From Isosphaera pallida ATCC 43644 (GTDB lineage Bacteria; Planctomycetota; Planctomycetia; Isosphaerales; Isosphaeraceae), in contig NC_014962.1 in the NCBI RefSeq assembly GCF_000186345.1, positions 62,001 to 126,000 on the forward strand: a stretch of DNA of 64,000 nt, read 5' to 3'. Positions 32,591-43,558 of the stretch are shown in pieces. Position 1 is the stretch's first letter; every line of letters starts with the position of its first letter. The translations under genes were made by a program, and so were the position numbers. The notes beneath the pieces were generated by a model that saw nothing but the letters and a program-made list of their open reading frames with translations, did not search any database and was not told where the DNA came from.

Positions 32591-34054
32591 TCACGTTCCG
32601 TTGGTGGAGTCGGCGGTTTGGAGGAGGAGAATCCAGTCGTGTCCCCGTCCTTGTTGGTCGTCGGGCGGGGCGAAGCGTTGGAGGGTTGAACCGTCCGCGT
32701 CTTGGGTGCGGGAGACCGGAGCGGCGGTTTGGAGCGAGCCGTCGCGGGGGTTGAACCACTGGACCGCCAGGGTGGGGCCGACCAGAGGTTCCAAGTTCAC
32801 GCGGATTGGGCGTCCTTCAGGAAGATAGAGGACGGCGGCCCGGTTGTCCGCGCGGCGTGCCGCCTGGACGTGGTGGGGGCCTTCGCGGCGGTCTAGCTCG
32901 TCGGCCACCAAACCTTGGTCGGGCACGAGGCGATGGAACGGTTGAATCGTCTCGAACAGCTTGCGGACGTGCCGCATTTGACCCGCGCCGGGCAGGTTCA
33001 GCGCATCAAACCAGGTCGAGCGGGCGTTGGAAATGGGTGGGCGTCCCGGCGCGGCCATTTGCCAAATGTCGTGGCAGCCGTAAGTGTGGCCCAATGCGCC
33101 GGCCAGCATCGCCCAATAGGCCGCCTTGCGGACGTCGGTCTCGTCCGAATAGCCGTTCTTGGGGTTGAAGTCGAGGGGGTGATTCTCGTAAATGGGCTCG
33201 GCGTCCATGCATGGTTTGGTGGGCCGACGGGCGTAATCGGCAGCGATCTGGGCATAATTGGCGCGGTCGCGGGCGTGTCCCGATTGAAGCATGTTGAAAT
33301 CCAGCCACGGCTTGTCGTGGAGTGGATCGGCGGAGGTCCGGCCTCCCCTGGGGTGGAACGAGATTAGGTGGTTGCCGCCGTCGCCGGCCCGCAGACCGAG
33401 CGCCATTGCTTCGATGACCGCCAGATGGGTGTCGGTGTCGATGACGCGATCGCCGCCGAGAATCCAAATGATCGGTCGGTCGCGGTAGCGTTGGCCCAGG
33501 AATTCGCCGTAGACGCGGGCGTTTTCAGGCGTGAAGATCACCGGGCCGGCACCGCCGGCGCGGTCGGTCCACTTGTCGCCCCAGGTGGGCAACATGCCGA
33601 TGACCAGGCCGAGTTCCTCAGCGCGGGCGACGATCGCATCCACATGTCGGAAGTAGGCCTCGTTGGGCCGAGTGGGGTCGTTGTCAAACAGGGGGAGGTC
33701 GCCGTTGGGGTTGGGGTCGGTGAGTCCCTTGAGTTCGGCCAGGACAACCGCTTGAATGACGGTGAAGCCCTTGGAGGCGCGGTCGCGCAGGTAGCGATCG
33801 GCCTCGTCGAGGCTAAGCCGGTGGAACAGTTCCCAGGCGGTGTCGCCCAGGTAGAAGAAGGGTTCGCCGTCGTTTTGGACGAGGTAACGGCGGTTGTCCG
33901 AGACCCTCAGCGGAAATTTCCAACGATGGGAGTTGGAGGAAGGGTCATCCGTCGCGTCGTGGTGGGCCGGCGTCGCCTGCAGGGGAAGGGGTGATAACCA
34001 ACCCGACGCCAAGGCGAGCCATGAGATGAGCGTGAGGGGGGGCGGGAGTAACAC
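32591..34054 (-). CDS. DUF4038-type glycoside hydrolase-like protein
   Basis: 487 residues with a predicted signal peptide (LISWLALASGWLSPLPLQA). The TIM-barrel-like DUF4038 domain starts with NDGEPFFYLGDTAWELFHRLS and continues through YLRDRASKGFTVIQAVVLAEL, IIWILGGD, CMDAEPIYEN (candidate catalytic Glu) and GHTYGCHDIWQM. A C-terminal beta-sandwich (about 400-487) follows. Related proteins cleave apiosyl or other side chains of plant polysaccharides, which would suit a heterotroph, but specificity here is inference. It forms an operon with the alpha/beta hydrolase downstream. Confidence 0.85.
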   Translation of the reverse strand: MLLPPPLTLISWLALASGWLSPLPLQATPAHHDATDDPSSNSHRWKFPLRVSDNRRYLVQNDGEPFFYLGDTAWELFHRLSLDEADRYLRDRASKGFTVIQAVVLAELKGLTDPNPNGDLPLFDNDPTRPNEAYFRHVDAIVARAEELGLVIGMLPTWGDKWTDRAGGAGPVIFTPENARVYGEFLGQRYRDRPIIWILGGDRVIDTDTHLAVIEAMALGLRAGDGGNHLISFHPRGGRTSADPLHDKPWLDFNMLQSGHARDRANYAQIAADYARRPTKPCMDAEPIYENHPLDFNPKNGYSDETDVRKAAYWAMLAGALGHTYGCHDIWQMAAPGRPPISNARSTWFDALNLPGAGQMRHVRKLFETIQPFHRLVPDQGLVADELDRREGPHHVQAARRADNRAAVLYLPEGRPIRVNLEPLVGPTLAVQWFNPRDGSLQTAAPVSRTQDADGSTLQRFAPPDDQQGRGHDWILLLQTADSTNGT

Positions 34055-34222: not shown

Positions 34223-37200
34223 TCAATCAAGCCGCAACCGGTTCAACTCGACGCGGAGGTGTTCGAGATCCCAGAAGGCGACGTTGGCGTCGCCGGTAGC
34301 GATGGCCAGGGTGACGCCTCGGGGACAAAAAGTCAAGGCACCGACCGATCCCCGACCGGCGGGCAGACGGATCCAGGGTTGAGGTGGGTGGTTGTGGGAG
34401 TCGTTGATCCAGAGCCGGACCTGGTCGCGGCTGCCGACGGCGAGAAGGCGGCCGTCGCCGCTCCAGCGGAGGGCCGTGATGGGTTGGGCGGGGTCGTCGG
34501 CGGGAGGGGCCAGCATGATGAGCGAGCTGCCCTGGGACGAGGCGTTTGACGTGGTGTTGGGGTCGGGGAGGCGAAGCAACGCGACCGACCCGGAACGCAA
34601 GCCGACGGCCAAGGTGCGATGGTCGGGGGTGATATCGAGGCAGACGCCGCGATCGGGCAGCTCGATGCGTTCCACGACGCGGAGGCGTCCGGCGTCGTCC
34701 ACCTTCCAGCGGGTCAAGCGGTTGGAGGCGTCGAGGCTGTCGATTTCGTCGCCGGCGTCGTTGATCGTCAGGGCGGTGATCGGCTCGCGGGGGAACTCGT
34801 TGGGAGGGGGGATCAGAGGTTGAAAGGGCCAGGAGGCCGAGGAGACGTTGGACTGGGAGCGCGGTTTGGAAAGGATGGCGGCGACTGCGTCAGCTCGTCC
34901 CCGCCACCAACGGTTGCGGGTGAAGAACGTAAGCGCGGTGCGTTGGGGCGAGAGGGCCAGACGGGGCCCGCCGCCGCGTCCGCGTCCCACTGTTCGACGG
35001 TTGACCTCCTCCTCGCCGGGAGCTGGGAGGAAGAGGACACCCGTGTGGCCGACTGGATCGCTCGGCGGGTCCGATTGCGTTTCCGATTCAGGATCGAGCC
35101 ACGACTCCTCCTCGTCCATCGGGTCAAGCGTTGGACTGGGGGCCGGGGTGCGAAGATGATCCGAACTCCATAACCAGATCCCTCGACTATCGACGGCAAT
35201 CAGGGTGTCGTCGTGGAGGAAACGCGCCTGAACCTGAGGCGAAGGGATCGGAATGACGCTGGAGTCAGGCGAGGTCAAGCCGCTGGAGGTGAGCAGTCGG
35301 AAGGGCTGATGGGAGGGTTTGTAGGGGGACGCGGTGGCGGAGGAGGGGGAGGAGACGGCGGGATCCAGCAACCAGACCCCGCCATTGAACCCAATGCCTT
35401 CGACGGTCGAGTTGGCGTTGCCGCTGGAGTCGGCGGCGTTGCCGGGGTTGGCTTGATCCAGGCTGGGGCGAGGAGCGGCGGCGGTCAGACGTCCTGCGGT
35501 GTTGAAGTCCAAGGTGTTGGCTGGGGTGGGGAGTTCCAGTGCGCGTTTTAGGCCAATAGGGGCTTGGATCGACCAGATTCGCACCTGTCCCGAGGCGTCG
35601 GCCACTGCCAGGCGGCGTCCATCGGGAGAGAAGGCGAGACGTTCGGGGAGCTGGTCGGTCTCCAGTCGCGCCACGAGTTGCCCGCTTCGAGGATCCCAAA
35701 GCTCGACTCCCGGAGTCGTCGAGCCGGTCACCGCCAGAAATTCGTCGGTCGGACTGAACTGGAGCGAACGAAGGGGAGCCAAACGGGTTTCCAGAATCGC
35801 GCGGGGGGAACCGGTTTCGGCCTGCCAGATTTGCACAGTTTCCCGCGTGGCAACCGCCACTAGGGCGTCGTTGGCCACGGCTAGCCAAGTCACCGGCGAA
35901 GCGACGACAAATTCGCCCAAGGGCGAGCCGTCCTCGCCGGACACCAAGCGAATCTCGTCGCCGCCAAAGAGGGCGAAACCCAAGAGGCGACCGTCGGTTG
36001 AGAGGTCGAGCAGTTGCGGAACCAGATCGTTGCCCACGTTGACCAGCAGATCCCAGGAGGCGAGAGGTTGTGGGACGAAGGCGGTGGAGGTTGCGAAGGT
36101 TTCGGATGCCGACAAGGGGGGGTGAGACCTTCCGCCGTTGGTTTCGGACTGGACGACATTGGAGGGTGAGTCATTGGGAGGTGAGTCGGAGGGGGCCGAC
36201 GTGGAATCGCGCGGGAGGAACTCGTCGAGGTTCCAGAGTTGGATGAGGAAAGAACGACTCTCGCCAACTTGGGTGGCCACTGGACGGTCGATGGTGACCG
36301 CGCGGTGGCCTGGAATCGACGTGATTACATAAATGAATTCGCGGTCCACAAGCCAGGGAGCCGTGGGGTGTCCGGTTTTGGGGTTGAAGGCCACCACGCC
36401 GCGTCCGCCGCTAGCTGGACCCAGCGGACCCAACGGACTCAACGCCAGTCCGCTTCCGAATAAAGGCGAGGGGCGCCGCGTACCGGAAGGGAGGAGGTCG
36501 CGGGCGGCGACAAGGTTGTGTCGTTGGATGTCCTGGCGTGTGGTGACGTTCCACACCGTCAGTTCCGAACCATCGCGGCTTTGACTCAGGAGATGGTTGG
36601 GGTCGGGGAAAAGCAACGAGAGGACCCGGCCGGCGTCGAGGGTTCCCTCGTGGGCGACACCGCGGGAGGCGAGGAATCCCACTGCGCGGTCGCGGAGTCT
36701 CAAAGGCAGGTCGGCCAGGTCGGGGGACACGGCCGTGAGGGGGAGGCCGTTTTTGGTACGGTTGATGAGGGTGATGGGGGTGGAGGGACCGGGGGAGGCG
36801 GTGAGTTCCTCCAGACGGTCGCGGGCTTCGAGGATGAGGGCTAGACCGCGGTTGCGCCGGTCGGGGGTGGTGGAGCTTTCGATGAGGCTCGCTTCGCCCA
36901 GGATGCGCTGGAGGACCTCGCGGTTCAGTTCGGCTTGAGCGAGCACGGCCCGGTCGCGGTCGGCGGCGACCTGGAGGTAGGCGACAGTGACCACCGCCGT
37001 GATTACCGCCGCGGCAGCCAGAGTCACGCTGGACATGGCTGGGTTGCGGCGGGCGAACCGCCATAGACGGCCCACCGGACTGATCCGCCGGGCTTTGACC
37101 GGCTCATGGTTGAGGAATCGTTCGAGATCCTCAGCCAACTCGCCGGCGGTGCGGTAGCGATCCTCGGGACGTTTGGCCATGGCCTTGAGAATGATCGTCT

Positions 37201-38479
37201 CCAGGTCGCGGGCAATCCGCGGCTGGTGGACCCGGGGGGCGGTGGGCTCGACCCCCACGATCGAGCGAATCAGCTCGTTGAGGTCGGTGGTTTCAAAGGG
37301 TGGTTTCAGGGTGGCCAGTTCGTAGAGGGTCGCTCCCAGGCTATAAATATCGGTTCGGCCGTCGAGCGGTTTGGATTCGGCTTGTTCGGGACTCATGTAC
37401 TTGGGTGTGCCTACGACGCCTCCCGAATGAGTCAAACCGGGGTCGCTCAGACGACGAGCCAGGCCGAAGTCGGCCACCCATACCATCCCACGCGCGTCGA
37501 TCAGCAGGTTGGAGGGTTTGATGTCCCGATGAATCACCCCACGTTGATGGGCGTAATCCAGCGCCTGGGCAGCTTGCAGGCCGACCCGGGCCACCCAGCG
37601 GTCGTATTCGGAACCCTCGGGCGGTTGGAAGATGGGGCCGGTGGGGGTGGCGACCGGCGAGGGAAGGTCCAGGTCGAGCTCGAAGTCGGACTCCGGGCCG
37701 TCGGTCGAGCGGTCCGGGCCGCCTGGTCGGGAACCGGAAGGGGCTTGAGTCTGGCTCGTCTCTGCTGGTAGATGGGTGGGAGGGCCGGGACGAGTCGAGA
37801 GCGGGTGGGTGGGCCGCTCGGCCTGGATTAAACGCCGACGCCTCAGCACCCGATCGAGCCCGACTCCCTCGATGCGTTGCATGGCGTAGTAGCATAAGCC
37901 GTGCGACTCGCCCACGTCGAAGACCGGCACGATATGGGTGTGGTGCAGTCCGGCGGCGACCCGGGCTTCGTTGAGGAAGCGGCGGCGATCGCGTCCCCGA
38001 GCGCCGGGGCCAGCGCGGAGTACCTTGAGGGCGACGGGGCGCTCCAATCCCAGGTGAAGCGCCTCGAAGACCACCCCCATGCCGCCTTGTCCCAGTTCGC
38101 CGAGGATGCGGTAGCCCGCGATTTCGCGTCCGGGTTCCAGGTGGTCGGGTCGTTTGGTCAAGCGCGACGAGGCGCTGCCGGCCAGGCCGTGAACCAACCG
38201 CAATCCTTCCAGGGCGGCCCGGAGGTCGTCGGCCAGTTCGGGGGGATAGTCGCGGAGGAACTCCTCCAGGGGGGGAGCTGCGCCCGCCTCGATCCGTTCG
38301 AGGTACCGTTCCACCGCGTCGCCCAGCAGATCCTCCTCCTCTTCGGCGGCGAACGAGGGGGTGGGATCGGAGATAGCGGGGGGCTGATCGGCGTTGGACC
38401 CTGGGAACTCCTCCCGTGGCGTGGTCAGCGCCTCAAGACCCGGCGGGGGCGGGTTCGTTGCTTGGCGCTCGGCGGTCAT
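34223..38479 (-). CDS. Large Ser/Thr protein kinase with WD40-like C-terminal region
   Basis: 1418-residue transmembrane kinase. A short N-terminal helical region (LRDYPPELADDLRAALEGL) precedes the kinase domain: GYRILGELGQGGMGVVFEA, VALKVL, GVIHRDIKPSNLLID, ADFGLAR and GTPKYMSPEQAESK are all intact, so it should be active. An insertion of roughly 90 residues, rich in Pro/Ser/Thr, separates the N-lobe region from YDRWVARVGLQAAQALDYAH. A single helix (SSVTLAAAAVITAVVTVAYL) then leads to about 800 residues of degenerate WD40-type repeats (for example LAFSPDGRRLAVADASGQVRIW, LRWSGDGRLLAVGSRDQVRLW). Overlaps the upstream sigma factor gene by four bases (ATGA), which implies translational coupling. 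Confidence 0.93.
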   Translation of the reverse strand: MTAERQATNPPPPGLEALTTPREEFPGSNADQPPAISDPTPSFAAEEEEDLLGDAVERYLERIEAGAAPPLEEFLRDYPPELADDLRAALEGLRLVHGLAGSASSRLTKRPDHLEPGREIAGYRILGELGQGGMGVVFEALHLGLERPVALKVLRAGPGARGRDRRRFLNEARVAAGLHHTHIVPVFDVGESHGLCYYAMQRIEGVGLDRVLRRRRLIQAERPTHPLSTRPGPPTHLPAETSQTQAPSGSRPGGPDRSTDGPESDFELDLDLPSPVATPTGPIFQPPEGSEYDRWVARVGLQAAQALDYAHQRGVIHRDIKPSNLLIDARGMVWVADFGLARRLSDPGLTHSGGVVGTPKYMSPEQAESKPLDGRTDIYSLGATLYELATLKPPFETTDLNELIRSIVGVEPTAPRVHQPRIARDLETIILKAMAKRPEDRYRTAGELAEDLERFLNHEPVKARRISPVGRLWRFARRNPAMSSVTLAAAAVITAVVTVAYLQVAADRDRAVLAQAELNREVLQRILGEASLIESSTTPDRRNRGLALILEARDRLEELTASPGPSTPITLINRTKNGLPLTAVSPDLADLPLRLRDRAVGFLASRGVAHEGTLDAGRVLSLLFPDPNHLLSQSRDGSELTVWNVTTRQDIQRHNLVAARDLLPSGTRRPSPLFGSGLALSPLGPLGPASGGRGVVAFNPKTGHPTAPWLVDREFIYVITSIPGHRAVTIDRPVATQVGESRSFLIQLWNLDEFLPRDSTSAPSDSPPNDSPSNVVQSETNGGRSHPPLSASETFATSTAFVPQPLASWDLLVNVGNDLVPQLLDLSTDGRLLGFALFGGDEIRLVSGEDGSPLGEFVVASPVTWLAVANDALVAVATRETVQIWQAETGSPRAILETRLAPLRSLQFSPTDEFLAVTGSTTPGVELWDPRSGQLVARLETDQLPERLAFSPDGRRLAVADASGQVRIWSIQAPIGLKRALELPTPANTLDFNTAGRLTAAAPRPSLDQANPGNAADSSGNANSTVEGIGFNGGVWLLDPAVSSPSSATASPYKPSHQPFRLLTSSGLTSPDSSVIPIPSPQVQARFLHDDTLIAVDSRGIWLWSSDHLRTPAPSPTLDPMDEEESWLDPESETQSDPPSDPVGHTGVLFLPAPGEEEVNRRTVGRGRGGGPRLALSPQRTALTFFTRNRWWRGRADAVAAILSKPRSQSNVSSASWPFQPLIPPPNEFPREPITALTINDAGDEIDSLDASNRLTRWKVDDAGRLRVVERIELPDRGVCLDITPDHRTLAVGLRSGSVALLRLPDPNTTSNASSQGSSLIMLAPPADDPAQPITALRWSGDGRLLAVGSRDQVRLWINDSHNHPPQPWIRLPAGRGSVGALTFCPRGVTLAIATGDANVAFWDLEHLRVELNRLRLD

Positions 38480-39153
38480 GGGGAGAAGCCCTCCGCTTTG
38501 AGAGATCCGCCAGGTGGCCCCTCGAGTTGTCGTTTAACCGTTTTCAGCCCCCGCGCCCAAATGCCTCGGGCCACCTTTCGGCTTATCCCCAGACGTTCGC
38601 CGATGGCCTCGAACGACAATCCTTCGACATGGTAGAGCCAGAGAACGTCGGCTTCGTTGCTGGGAAGTTGGGCCAGGGCGTCGGCCAGTAACACGGTCAA
38701 TTCGCGGTTGCTGGCCGCCTCACTGGGACTGGTCTGGCTGAGAGCTAGCATGTCCAAGAGCCGCGCGGGACCCCCGCCAACCGCGGAATCGCCTCCTTCC
38801 CCGCCGGGGGTCACAGGCACGTCCAAGGGTAAGGGGGCGATTCCGCCGGCTCGTTTGACTCGGTTGTGGTAGCGGCCTAGGTCGGCCAGCTTTTGTCCCA
38901 CAAGACGCCTCATCCAGCCCACCAGCGCGGCCTCGTTGGTCCCGGTGAACTGGGGAAACTGCCGCACCACCTCCACCAATGCTTCTTGAACCACGTCGGA
39001 GAGCTCGACCTTCTCGCGGAGTTTGGCCCCAAGGCCCGAGCGGACTACCATCCGCAGGTAGTTGCGGTACAGCGCGCAAAGATCCCCTAGTGCCTCGGCC
39101 TGGCCCTCTTTGGCGCGTGCGATCAATTCAACGGGCGGAACAGCGGGATTCAT
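38476..39153 (-). CDS. ECF-like RNA polymerase sigma factor
   Basis: 225 residues from ATG 39153; an ATG at 39210 is an alternative and neither has a strong ribosome site. Region 2 is visible as LCALYRNYLRMVVRSGLGAKLREKVELSDVVQEALVEVVRQF and region 4 as LPSNEADVLWLYHVEGLSFEAIGERLGISRKVARGIWARGLKTVKRQL. No anti-sigma factor follows. Instead the gene ends in a four-base overlap with the big kinase, a layout seen repeatedly in planctomycetes, suggesting that the kinase senses a signal and controls this or another sigma factor by phosphorylation. Confidence 0.9.
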   Translation of the reverse strand: MNPAVPPVELIARAKEGQAEALGDLCALYRNYLRMVVRSGLGAKLREKVELSDVVQEALVEVVRQFPQFTGTNEAALVGWMRRLVGQKLADLGRYHNRVKRAGGIAPLPLDVPVTPGGEGGDSAVGGGPARLLDMLALSQTSPSEAASNRELTVLLADALAQLPSNEADVLWLYHVEGLSFEAIGERLGISRKVARGIWARGLKTVKRQLEGPPGGSLKAEGFSP

Positions 39154-39546
39154 GGCGGGCGTCGCCTGGAGTTTACGACTTCGCGCGACGGAAACACCAT
39201 CGTCACGCATCAGCGTCCAGTAAAAGGACAAGATGAGCAACGGCGTGGACCGCGGCGCTTCGATTACGATCCCCGATTGGTTTCGTTCCGAACGGGGCCG
39301 ATCGAACAGCTCGGAAACCACGCCCTGGCGGAGCTTGGAGTCATCTCGACACCTCAATCGTGACGTGAAGCGGGTCGATTTGACAAGCCCTCGTTTTATC
39401 CGAGGCGGTCCTCTCGTTCCCAAAGTCCGTAAGGTGGGTGGGACGATGAGCAACAAGAAGATCATGGCTCCTCATCGCGCGACCCCGTTTGGATTCATTC
39501 GGTTCCGCGCTGTCCGGGTCGATCGGTTTCACAGCGAGATGGATCA
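39154..39546. other. 393-bp divergent intergenic region
   Basis: Upstream of the sigma factor (minus) and the thioesterase (plus). An open frame reaches through it to 39465 but has no coding character I can defend. No clear promoter motif stands out. Confidence 0.4.
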
Positions 39547-39984: not shown

Positions 39985-40896
39985 TTAGAGGAATTCCAAG
40001 CCTGATTCGACGATCCGGTAAACTTTGATACCCTCGTCGCAAACGCTGCCGCGATGCTTGGCCACATGGAGGGCCCGGCCATAGCCGTTGTTGAGTTTGG
40101 TGCGGCCCATGAAGATGATGGTGTTGGCGTTAGCGAAGAGATCTCCCTCGCTGATGGGCGCAGTCACCAAATCGTCCAACATCACCTGAGGCGTGGTGTA
40201 AAGGTAGAGGCAACCGATTTCGTCGTGTCGATAGCGATGGTCGGAATGGGCGACTTGGTCGGCCACACTTCGGAACCGTTCGCGGAAGACCTCGCGGGCC
40301 AGCCAGTCGGCCTCGCGGCGCAGAACCTGGTGATACAGATACTCGAAAAGTTCAAACTGGATCGAATCGGCGAAGCGGTCGGTCGGTTCCACGCCGTCGA
40401 AGACCACCCGCCGGACCCCTCGGACGAACCAGGCGTAATGCCAGGCGGCGGCGCGTCGGAGGGTTCGGGCGAGATCAACTTTCCATTCGTGCCAGGCGTC
40501 GGCTTCCAGGTCGCGTCGGGTGACGCGCTTGCCTGCGTGATGGAACGGGCGGAACCAATCGCCCAGGGGGCGTTGGAACTCGAACGGGTACTCAAGCGGA
40601 TCGAGCGCGGGGTCGTGAGGGCCGGTGTTGGGATGCTCGGTCAGGATCCAGTCGTCGAGGCGTTGAGCGTAGGCAGCGTGGTTTTGGGAGTCGCCCCGAC
40701 TGGCCAGGTCGCAAACGATCCCACGACAGGACTCGGCTGGATCGCGTCGGCCCTGAGCGGCCCAGGTTAGACCCAGTTGGGTTTTTCCCACGCCGGTGGC
40801 CCCCGCCACCACCGTGAGGGTTCCAGGCAGCAACCCTCCTCCCAACGCTTGGTCGAGTACGGGAAGACCAAAAGCTTGACGACGCTTCACGGTCAT
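39985..40896 (-). CDS. KaiC/RadA-like P-loop ATPase
   Basis: 303 residues from ATG 40896 (no clear ribosome site; the frame extends to 41079). The N-terminus LPVLDQALGGGLLPGTLTVVAGATGVGKTQLGLTWA has the KaiC-family preface and Walker A. VRRVVFDGVEP is the likely Walker B. The middle (FEFQRPLGDWFRPFHHAGKRV to RFRSVADQVAHSDH) differs from KaiC and is rich in Arg, His and Trp; TNTIIFMGRTKLNNGYGRALHVAKHRGS-like residues near the end resemble the RecA-core C-terminal strands. No KaiB, histidine kinase or DNA-repair genes are close, so the role is open. Confidence 0.8.
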   Translation of the reverse strand: MTVKRRQAFGLPVLDQALGGGLLPGTLTVVAGATGVGKTQLGLTWAAQGRRDPAESCRGIVCDLASRGDSQNHAAYAQRLDDWILTEHPNTGPHDPALDPLEYPFEFQRPLGDWFRPFHHAGKRVTRRDLEADAWHEWKVDLARTLRRAAAWHYAWFVRGVRRVVFDGVEPTDRFADSIQFELFEYLYHQVLRREADWLAREVFRERFRSVADQVAHSDHRYRHDEIGCLYLYTTPQVMLDDLVTAPISEGDLFANANTIIFMGRTKLNNGYGRALHVAKHRGSVCDEGIKVYRIVESGLEFL

Positions 40897-41419
40897 GAAG
40901 GCGATCCGGGAGGAAGTTGCGGAGATTGCAACCAAGAAAGGCTGTCCACGTGGGAGGCAACGGCTTCGCGTTGGCGGTAGGGACGACGCGACGGGGTGGT
41001 GACTAGGGAGGGAAGTGGAGAGGACCGCGGGAATGTCCACGATGCCGGCAATGGTACCGCGTAGCGACGCTTCCGGCAACCCAGCCCGAAATCATCGGGG
41101 AATCGACCAAGCGAACGGGAAGAATCGCGGCGTCATTGTTGTGATCGGTAGACTCGCGCCAGGCGTCATGGTGGGTGGAATTGATCAAGTTGCTGAATCC
41201 GGTTGACCGAGATTGTGAATGGTGACGCTAAAGCCCTCCCGACCGCCAGAAGTCCGTCCGGGAAGCGGAGGGGCGTCCAAGAATCGCTTAAGGGATTCGG
41301 AGACCGTCGAGAGGGCAACGTCAATGAATGGATGGAACCTGGATCGTGCGGGAGCTTGTCGGGAGTGGATCGGGACCACTCCGGCCTCGTCACGTTCACC
41401 CTGGCGAAGGAACCGCGAT
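40897..41419. other. 523-bp divergent intergenic region
   Basis: Upstream of the KaiC-like gene (minus) and the secretin gene (plus). Open frames extend into it from both sides but lack ribosome sites and family similarity. No repeat or hairpin is evident. Confidence 0.4.
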
Positions 41420-43558
41420 ATGATCGCGCGACGGTTTCAAACCCTCTTGACGAGAACTCACGGTCTCCGCCGCGTCGGGCTGACGTGTTGGAGTGCCGCC
41501 TTGATTTCGGGATCCTGGGGCATGGCCCCTTCGATCTCCTTCGCGCAACAGCCTCCGCCGGTTGAGGTACCGACCCCAGCTCCGGCTCCAGTGCCTTTGC
41601 CAGAGGATCCGCCCCTGCCCACCCCGATTGTGCCGATTCCCGAGGTCCCGCCGATTCCGGAGGCCGCCACGCTTCCCGCTACAGCCGCGACTTCCGCGCC
41701 GGCCCGAGTGGCGGTTCGCCCGGCCCAGGATGGCCAAGCAGAACCGGGCAATTTGCCCCAGGCGCTGCCCAACGCCGCCGCCGAGAACACGCCGCCGCTT
41801 CCTGAGGAGGTGGCCGACCCCAAAATGTCGGCCAAGGAGTTGGAAAATCTGACTCCCTACACCAACATCCCCAACCCGCGCCCGATCACTGGCCAAATCG
41901 CCGAACTCTTCGAGTTGATCCAGGATCCCAGCGTTGAGTTGAGCGTCGTGGTAGGGCGGGGCAAGGTGATTCAGCTTCGCGAGCAGCCCCTGCGGTTCAT
42001 TTTGGGCAACCCGCGGATCGCCACCTTGTCGTTCCCGCCTAGCGACGTGCAGTCGCTGGCTCAGTTGGATCGGCCCAGCGACGCGCGTTTGTTTGTGGTC
42101 TACGGTATCCAAGCTGGCACTACGACCCTGACCATCTGGGACAAGAACAACGTCCCCACCACCTTCCTGGTGCGGGTCTCGGTAGACACGCTGGACATCC
42201 AGAATCAGATCCGCGCTGTGTTTCCCGGCACCGACGTGACGGTGCGGCAATCGGCCAACCAGATTATCCTGGAGGGCCAGGTGCCCGACACCAAAACGAT
42301 GAACGAGGTGATCCGTTTGGTCAACGGCCTGTTGGTGAGCAACCAGGCGGGTGAGGTCCGGGCCCCAACCGGCGCGGGTGGCGGCGGTGGTGGTCAATCG
42401 GTTGGGGCGTTCGCCGCGGCCGAGCGAGCCTTGGGCGATGAGGCTCCCTCCGGAATCAGCCCTCAAATTATCAACCGGCTGCGGGTACCGGGGCCGCGTC
42501 AGATTTTGCTCAAGGTCAAGCTCGCCGAACTCAACCGTACGGCGATCCGGGAAATCGGAGCCAACTGGCTGCGGGGGCGCAATAATTCGCTCATCGGATC
42601 CCAGATCGGCGGGATCGCCGGGTTTACCACCGAAACCAATACTCAAATGACCGCTGCGTTCGCCGCGCCGTCGTTCGGACGACCGGGCATCGCCGGTGGT
42701 CAGCCCATCCCTGGCTCGGTGACCGGTAGCCTGATTCAGGGCATCGACACCCTGCTCAATGCCACGGCGGGGTCCGCCCTGCAACCCTCGGCGCAACTCT
42801 TTGGCATCTTCCGAGCCGGCGAGTTCGACCTCTTCCTCAACGCGCTGCGCACCAACAACCTGGCCACGATCTTGGCCGAACCCAACCTCACGGCGCTGGA
42901 TGGCCAACCGGCCCGCGTGATCGCTGGGGGTGAGATTCCCTTCCCGGTACCTCAGTTGGGAGCCGGCGGGGGCGGGGGTGGGGCGGTCATCACGATCCAG
43001 TTCCGGCCCTTCGGCGCGATCCTAACCTTCCTGCCGCAGATTCTGGAGGACGACTTGATTCGTCTGGATGTCGAGCCGGTTTTCAGCACGCCCAACCAAG
43101 GTTTGGGTACCTCGATCAACGGCACGGCGGTTCCCGGCTTCAACACCCGCTCGGCCCGCACGGTGGTCCAACTCCGCGAAGGGGAGACCCTGGCGATCGC
43201 TGGGTTGATCCAGAAGAACAACCAGGCGGCGACGAACCGGATTCCTCTGCTGGGCGACGCGCCGATTGTTGGTCCCCTGTTCAGCCGGAACCGGTTCGAG
43301 ACGCTGGAGACCGAACTGATCGTGATCGTGACCCCGTACCTGATCGCGCCGATGGGTGAGGGGGAGGTGCCCAAGGTGCCCACCGACTACGTTGACGAGC
43401 CGAACGATATCGAGTTTTTCATACTTGGTCGAACCGAGGGTAAGACTGGCATCCCCCACCGCTCGACAATCCAGCATCACACACCGTTCACGCTGCAGAA
43501 GCATTTCGCCAGCGAAAACCAGTGGGTCGTCGGTCCCCACGGTCACTCGTCCGACTGA
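41420..43558 (+). CDS. Secretin of a Tad-like type II/IV pilus system
   Basis: Outer-membrane channel subunit, 712 residues from ATG 41420 (AAGGA eight bases upstream). A signal peptide (VGLTCWSAALISGSWGMAPSISFAQ) is followed by a Pro-rich stretch, then the pilus-assembly N-terminal domain (VVVGRGKVIQLREQPLRFILGNPRIATLSF), a BON-like segment (TDVTVRQSANQIILEGQVPD) and a glycine-rich loop. The secretin domain includes LKVKLAELNRTAIREIGANW, ILAEPNLTALDGQPARVIAGGEIPFPVP, and a C-terminal VVQLREGETLAIAGLIQ with IVIVTPYLIAPM. It matches CpaC/RcpA rather than GspD. It begins a run with the OmpA-like and TPR genes. Confidence 0.92.
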   Translation: MIARRFQTLLTRTHGLRRVGLTCWSAALISGSWGMAPSISFAQQPPPVEVPTPAPAPVPLPEDPPLPTPIVPIPEVPPIPEAATLPATAATSAPARVAVRPAQDGQAEPGNLPQALPNAAAENTPPLPEEVADPKMSAKELENLTPYTNIPNPRPITGQIAELFELIQDPSVELSVVVGRGKVIQLREQPLRFILGNPRIATLSFPPSDVQSLAQLDRPSDARLFVVYGIQAGTTTLTIWDKNNVPTTFLVRVSVDTLDIQNQIRAVFPGTDVTVRQSANQIILEGQVPDTKTMNEVIRLVNGLLVSNQAGEVRAPTGAGGGGGGQSVGAFAAAERALGDEAPSGISPQIINRLRVPGPRQILLKVKLAELNRTAIREIGANWLRGRNNSLIGSQIGGIAGFTTETNTQMTAAFAAPSFGRPGIAGGQPIPGSVTGSLIQGIDTLLNATAGSALQPSAQLFGIFRAGEFDLFLNALRTNNLATILAEPNLTALDGQPARVIAGGEIPFPVPQLGAGGGGGGAVITIQFRPFGAILTFLPQILEDDLIRLDVEPVFSTPNQGLGTSINGTAVPGFNTRSARTVVQLREGETLAIAGLIQKNNQAATNRIPLLGDAPIVGPLFSRNRFETLETELIVIVTPYLIAPMGEGEVPKVPTDYVDEPNDIEFFILGRTEGKTGIPHRSTIQHHTPFTLQKHFASENQWVVGPHGHSSD

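Follow-up and report, generated by a model that had tools for sequence, protein, structure and literature searches.

Class I anti-sigma factors (ASDI) are membrane proteins with a helical N-terminal domain that are encoded just behind an extracytoplasmic function (ECF) sigma factor (PMC7406223), and a transmembrane kinase is paired with an ECF sigma factor in EcfP/PknT of Vibrio and in EcfK/PknS of Xanthomonas, both of the group ECF43. EcfP lacks the acidic residues of region 2.2, where a phosphate restores the charge (PMC8999054, PMC8103513). In planctomycetes, the groups ECF59, ECF61, ECF62 and ECF217 are linked to serine/threonine protein kinases (STPKs), usually without an anti-sigma factor, and control by phosphorylation has been proposed for them (PMC8999054); according to reviews, the control of many planctomycete kinase-linked ECF sigma factors is predicted mainly from gene order. 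Planctomycete ECF-kinase pairs, WD40 kinases and sigma phosphorylation as such are already known (PMC8999054, PMC8103513, PMC11032199, PMC13147305); our statements on all these publications refer to the accessible parts of their text. Here, we analysed a sigma-kinase gene pair in a stretch of 64,000 nucleotides of Isosphaera pallida ATCC 43644 (contig NC_014962.1, positions 62,001 to 126,000, hereafter the window), whose kinase carries a three-helix domain at its N-terminus (N-domain). In our best reading the N-domain is a sigma-docking, possibly anti-sigma, module, and we consider it about an even chance (probability roughly 0.5) that the pair forms a receptor-kinase/ECF-sigma module in which the N-domain docks the sigma factor and the kinase controls it.

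The window pair shares features with each of these systems. As in ECF59, ECF61, ECF62 and ECF217, the sigma factor is encoded beside a Ser/Thr kinase, and the genome of Planctomycetales bacterium 71-10, from which an ECF61 example was taken (PMC8999054), holds an ortholog of the window pair (L142); the accessible account of these groups makes no mention of a kinase N-terminal domain. Like EcfP/PknT and EcfK/PknS of ECF43, the pair joins a transmembrane kinase to an ECF sigma factor, and as in PknS a helical N-terminal stretch precedes the kinase domain; unlike the ECF43 sigma factors, in which the acidic region-2.2 motif is missing or weakened, the window sigma factor keeps this motif. The arrangement of a helical N-terminal domain on a membrane protein encoded just behind the sigma gene is that of ASDI, from which the window protein differs in that the Hx3Cx2C motif is missing, no fold match is secure and the kinase domain lies between N-domain and membrane. 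Finally, the order of kinase domain, transmembrane helix and C-terminal WD40 region predicted to be periplasmic is that of the planctomycete WD40 membrane Ser/Thr kinases (PMC11032199), for which the accessible text describes no link with a sigma partner or with this N-domain. In a literature search that covered little subscription content we found no publication describing the N-domain, without claiming that none is in print, and the same limited search returned neither its link to a sigma class nor fusions of kinases with zinc anti-sigma domains.

The sigma factor was assigned to the ECF (group 4) type since regions 2 and 4 were recognised, with no region-3 model among its matches. It scores 41.1 bits against PF07638 (cut-off 21.1) and 65.3 against TIGR02937 (cut-off 42.9), and remains below the cut-off for region 2 alone (PF04542, 20.8 against 24). 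Its best specific family is TIGR02984 with 143.8 bits, about 40 short of the curated cut-off of 183.75, which places it outside the family as curated; we refer to such proteins as TIGR02984-type. The earlier note had described the second gene product as a 1418-residue membrane kinase with a WD40-like region, and kinase family, transmembrane helix and WD40 families were indeed all found. Its match to PF00069 lies far above the cut-off of 31.7, the Lys, HRD and DFG motifs of Hanks-type kinases are intact, and H-R-D, K-P-S-N and D-F-G are invariant across 29 aligned kinase sequences. Matches to PF00400 (55.1 bits, cut-off 27) and PF12894 (49.3, cut-off 22.9) cover approximately residues 870–1000 and 1253–1409.

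A strong ortholog of the sigma factor is present in 43 of the 45 Isosphaeraceae genomes, its own included, with identities of 62–78% in the others; the remaining two genomes contain a C-terminal sigma fragment only and none, respectively. In a sigma profile search of 397 genomes of the class, the orthologs scored 324–423 bits, separated by a clean gap from the next best match at 170. The pairing with an STPK proved to be conserved as well, since a kinase match lies downstream on the same strand in 41 of the 42 relatives' loci, the exception being a contig with just 2.3 kb downstream; at L061, which belongs to the 41, the frame of the kinase appears broken. The earlier note had further proposed that an ATGA overlap couples translation of both genes. 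The coordinates given for the pair are right and the overlap is present. Among 74 paralogous pairs, 56 offer a 4-nucleotide (nt) overlap between kinase start and sigma stop, but the exact overlap is rare among the orthologs: besides the window, it is available in 2 of 41 pairs (L045, L047), and in most others the two genes are separated by anything between a few and several hundred nt. In 24 of the 41 pairs the sigma gene contains a start codon for the kinase. Translational coupling is hence plausible, and a functional tie between sigma factor and kinase is strongly supported by the conservation of the pair. That both genes are mere operon neighbours, kept together for co-expression without direct contact, would be in line with the 17 of 41 orthologous pairs in which no kinase start is seen inside the sigma gene and with gaps of up to several hundred nt; it is nevertheless very improbable in view of the family-wide pairing, its class-wide repetition with diverged paralogs and the co-variation described below. 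Kinase-domain matches at the orthologous loci are 45–68% identical, whereas the best WD40 matches mostly reach 23–39% (one 45%), so that the putative sensor varies most.

We then asked how closely the N-domain follows the sigma type, using 96 further sigma loci picked on sigma similarity alone with their neighbours unseen (51 of 52 out-of-family paralog rows and 45 of about 109 in-family rows). A kinase lies directly behind the sigma gene in 74 of the 96 loci when strict motifs are applied, and 72 of these 74 kinases carry the N-domain; four more kinases were missed by the strict motif (L195, L199, L207, L229). In total, 76 downstream open reading frames (ORFs) of the 96 loci contain the N-domain according to a profile refined by iteration over this same sequence set, while the starting profile, built from the window's orthologs alone, already detected it in 73 of 95. 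In the reverse direction, the N-domain was sought in 12 whole genomes and its matches were compared with those of TIGR02984-type sigma factors. At E ≤ 1e-6, 19 of 22 N-domain matches lie less than 700 nt behind such a sigma gene on the same strand, and at E ≤ 1e-3 this holds for 29 of 43. The three loci L195, L199 and L207, all from one genus, combine the same sigma type and the N-domain with a different kinase subfamily that has DWG in place of DFG, which looks like a natural domain exchange. Loss of catalysis in these three was considered and rejected, since HRDLKP and DWG are present.

The three parts of the system also differ in how closely they co-vary. Across 72 pairs the distance correlation is 0.83 between sigma factor and N-domain, 0.74 between sigma factor and the whole kinase domain and 0.65 between N-domain and kinase domain; the partial correlation of sigma factor and N-domain given the kinase is 0.68, a value not reached in 500 permutations. 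Thinning to 45 pairs preserved the order (0.70, 0.52 and 0.38, respectively). As a control we drew 49 kinase columns 300 times, 150 times at random and 150 times from the more variable half, and the N-domain lies above all 300 draws, the maxima of which are 0.778 for 72 pairs and 0.605 for 45 pairs. Together with the retention of the N-domain where the kinase type differs, this co-variation marks sigma factor and N-domain as the tighter evolutionary unit. Such a unit is what a binding pair would be expected to show, though not proof of contact.

The N-domain itself has the consensus DRDERLGEAIExYLxLAExGxAPDPExFAAxYPDLxDDLRAALEGL (28 rows), and AlphaFold2 predicts three helices with a predicted local distance difference test (pLDDT) score of about 92 over the core, the linker to the kinase domain remaining below 50. 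No Pfam or NCBIfam family matches the window's copy, and other members show weak, scattered matches only. Designed pentatricopeptide repeat (PPR) proteins appeared in a profile search against solved structures with E-values down to 3e-11; we rejected them as relatives because these scores are sums over many repeats, each shown repeat having an independent E-value of about 100 or more. Comparison with structures gave no convincing match, the best being VIA with a Z-score of 5.0. Among the matches listed for the N-domain profile, with E-values of up to 10 admitted, there was no PDB chain 9eed_A (364 residues), which we take to be PknS judging by its length only.

The earlier note had stated that no anti-sigma factor is present. 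For the neighbouring genes this is correct, as none of the five ORFs flanking the pair encodes a recognised one, but in substance it may be wrong, because the kinase N-domain tracks the sigma factor and because kinases behind ECF sigma factors of another class carry zf-HC2, a recognised anti-sigma type of domain, at the same position. A zf-HC2 search of eight family genomes gave 28 rows. Ten of these rows, from nine distinct genes, represent kinases in which zf-HC2 precedes the kinase domain, and eight of the nine (L168, L172, L174, L183, L184, L185, L187, L189) follow an ECF sigma gene of another kind at a distance of no more than about 300 nt. Five of these sigma factors were scanned; all pass TIGR02937, and TIGR02984 is absent among the matches listed for each. 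Among six zf-HC2 kinases scanned, four pass the cut-offs for both zf-HC2 and Pkinase, one falls just under that for zf-HC2 (21.3 against 22.2) and one has no zf-HC2 match in that scan; three of the six contain a DUF2807 region after the kinase domain. The spot before the kinase domain thus holds two different small modules in two sigma classes. This would fit a kinase that acts as the anti-sigma factor itself: the N-domain, related to a class I anti-sigma domain but zinc-less, or else equivalent to one in function, would block the sigma factor until signalling through the kinase frees it, and the intact region 2.2, which should leave the sigma factor active unless held, points in the same direction. 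Direct comparison by hhalign is divided: the N-domain reached 51.8% (E 1.5e-4) with a set of zinc-less anti-sigma-like domains, against at most 3.1% in six controls, but this match spans just 27 columns and the set of six rows was hand-picked, whereas the full anti-sigma set gave 2.3%, another set of 14 gave 12.7% and the zf-HC2 domains of the kinases 0.3%. By comparison, the zinc-less set and the zinc set match one another at 86.1%. The Hx3Cx2C mark of zinc-type class I anti-sigma factors is absent from the window's N-domain and is no feature of the N-domain alignment; in view of the values of 0.3% and 2.3%, we claim no kinship with zinc anti-sigma domains by sequence. The fold comparison likewise gave no good match (MucA with a Z-score of 2.0 and a root-mean-square deviation of 4.4 over 46 residues). 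Overall, we regard this anti-sigma reading as less likely than docking with kinase control.

For a sigma factor controlled in the manner of EcfP, one would look for missing charge in region 2.2. This was rejected for the window sigma factor, as all 43 orthologs have E or D at residue 50 and D at residue 53; the ECF43 pattern, in which the acids of region 2.2 are replaced by uncharged residues with Ser/Thr, was found in none of these 43. Because the acids are kept, the sigma factor should be competent unless it is held back or modified elsewhere. The Ser/Thr mapping proposed by the earlier note did reveal candidate sites, S52, S142 and S144 being invariant in all 43 orthologs, and P143 and S144 are also kept in all 76 sigma paralogs whose neighbour has the N-domain. 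A plain kinase-activated sigma factor of the EcfK/EcfP kind, with an N-domain that serves the kinase alone in dimerisation or autoregulation, can draw on the reported direct phosphorylation of the ECF43 member EcfK by PknS, on the phosphorylation of EcfK in its sigma2-sigma4 linker too (PMC13147305) and on the flexible N-terminal stretch of PknS (81 residues, predicted to form 3–4 helices). We nonetheless judge it unlikely, given that the region-2.2 charge is intact here and that, compared with the kinase domain, the N-domain follows the sigma factor more closely and is kept with a kinase domain of another type.

Several observations weigh against a sigma-docking N-domain under kinase control. 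The N-domain is missing from two of the 74 kinases that follow a paralogous sigma gene (L214, L218) and, in addition, from that of L229, and 17 of the 96 loci lack both a complete kinase and the N-domain (14 without a kinase, two ending at or near the sigma gene and one, L122, apparently broken). In the 12 genomes, 3 of the 22 strong and 14 of all 43 N-domain matches occur without a TIGR02984-type sigma gene, and only 27 of 45 TIGR02984-type sigma factors of at least 100 bits have a detected N-domain behind them. The distance correlations can stem from shared inheritance instead of contact. A Foldseek search with the N-domain model returned nothing at E ≤ 0.001, the best hit being 2ido (HOT) at E 3.5. 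Last, S144 recurs in 13 of 14 sigma factors that have no kinase behind them, which marks the SPS motif as a signature of the whole subfamily; it need not be a phosphosite for this reason, and the candidates from the Ser/Thr mapping are qualified to that extent. Since region 2.2 is intact and SPS is not specific to kinase-linked sigma factors, we favour docking by the N-domain with control by the kinase.

Under docking with kinase control, both proteins would be made from one transcript, on which the observed overlap may couple their translation, translation of the kinase starting either by reinitiation or at a separate ribosome site within the end of the sigma gene; an independent start is conceivable because a Shine-Dalgarno-like GGAGGG precedes its ATG. 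The kinase would cross the membrane once, with the kinase domain inside and the WD40 propellers outside as the likely sensor. As linkage and co-variation suggest, the N-domain would dock the sigma factor and hold it at the membrane beside the catalytic domain. Upon a signal, the kinase would phosphorylate the sigma factor or itself, and the sigma factor would be released or changed in its activity. Likely sites would be the Ser/Thr residues of the sigma2-sigma4 linker (T141, S142, S144) or S52, and not a missing-charge site in region 2.2.

Table 1. Features of the sigma-kinase locus (positions counted from the first nucleotide of the window; aa, amino acids)
Feature	Position	Strand	Basis
ECF sigma factor, 225 aa	38476..39153	minus	PF07638, PF04545, PF08281, TIGR02937 above cut-off; ATG at 39153, stop at 38476
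Region 2.2 motif ELSDVVQE, aa 50-57, acids kept	38983..39006	minus	E50 in 42 and D in 1 of 43; S52 43/43; D53 43/43
S142-P143-S144 in the sigma2-sigma4 linker, candidate phosphosites	38722..38730	minus	invariant in 43/43 orthologs
GACGCTGA, before the sigma start, candidate promoter or leader element	39210..39217	minus	matches GACGC[CT][TG]A
ATGA, kinase start overlapping sigma stop	38476..38479	minus	sequence
GGAGGG, Shine-Dalgarno-like, 9 nt before kinase ATG (38479)	38489..38494	minus	sequence
Hanks-type Ser/Thr kinase, 1418 aa	34223..38479	minus	PF00069, 139.9 bits
N-terminal three-helix domain, aa 46-96 (about 50 residues), proposed sigma-docking module	38192..38344	minus	alignments, AlphaFold2, sigma linkage
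Kinase N-lobe, hinge and alphaD, aa 120-216	37832..38122	minus	PF00069, alignment, structure model
Low-complexity disordered insert, aa ~217-289	37613..37831	minus	poorly conserved in relatives; pLDDT <50 at aa 236-278
Kinase C-lobe with HRDIKPSN and DFGLA, aa 290-457	37109..37612	minus	PF00069, motifs
Single transmembrane helix, aa 484-502	36974..37030	minus	hydrophobicity 2.09
C-terminal WD40 region, aa ~600-1418, probably periplasmic	34226..36682	minus	family matches; topology by analogy with PMC11032199 (accessible part)

Further features of both genes are collected in Table 1. In-frame sigma starts occur out to position 39465, but the family orthologs align from residues 2–7 of the protein that starts at 39153. 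The low-complexity insert of the kinase reported in the earlier note is present, but it is closer to 70 than to 90 residues and sits between alphaD and alphaE. The helix behind the kinase domain was found in 36 of 38 aligned kinases and in neither L050 nor L064; a second hydrophobic stretch of the window kinase, at residue 858, is barely over the threshold (1.62) and lies inside the WD40 region.

Upstream of the sigma gene, the pattern GACGC[CT][TG]A, which was derived from these very sequences, is present in 22 of the 43 family upstream regions, against a mean of 1.4 and a maximum of 4 in shuffled sequences. It lies anywhere between 33 and 186 nt from the sigma start, and the species compared are related. 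Among 8-mers, GACGCCTA is the most frequent, being found in 16 of the 43 regions (at most 9 in shuffles), and the most frequent 7-mer is found in 17 (at most 15), while GGTCC-N16-18-[CT]GCC[TG]A occurs in 10 of the 43 (0.05 in shuffles) and is absent from the window. The upstream motif may represent a promoter, conceivably an autoregulated one, or a leader element.

The five ORFs flanking the pair encode a KaiC-like ATPase, an apiosidase-like protein, a hydrolase, a secretin and a 145-residue frame without any family; the apiosidase-like protein with a putative collagen-binding domain is located at 32591-34054, the KaiC-like ATPase at 39985-41079 and the secretin with a pilus N-terminal domain at 41219-43558. 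Elsewhere in the window's genome, for which about 60 kinases and no fewer than 25 sigma matches were counted, two more sigma-kinase pairs with PF07638 sigma factors of another kind were seen (L113, 4030000-4040500; L114, 705000-714500). Their kinase frames begin no closer to the sigma gene than 232 and 168 nt downstream, respectively, and the genome searches did not find the N-domain at either locus. A second, weak copy of the N-domain is carried by a kinase-WD40 gene of the same genome (L076:2405-6580, minus strand), from which an ECF sigma gene (L076:6840-7823, plus strand) diverges. The sigma paralog L130 is not followed by a kinase; the longest frame downstream of it (665 aa, +50) includes MRRRDFLAGLGAGTGAYTL, a sequence that, judged by eye, resembles a twin-arginine translocation (Tat) signal.

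Taken one step further, the two modules found before the kinase domain lead us to propose, tentatively, a type of planctomycete 'anti-sigma kinases', membrane receptor kinases with an exchangeable N-terminal sigma-binding module in which one protein may sense, sequester, phosphorylate and release the sigma factor; the module would be the three-helix domain for TIGR02984-type sigma factors and the zinc anti-sigma domain for another ECF class. If true, the anti-sigma and the kinase route would be merged in one protein, and a kinase domain that docks the sigma factor would explain how specific pairing is achieved among many parallel sigma factors and kinases.

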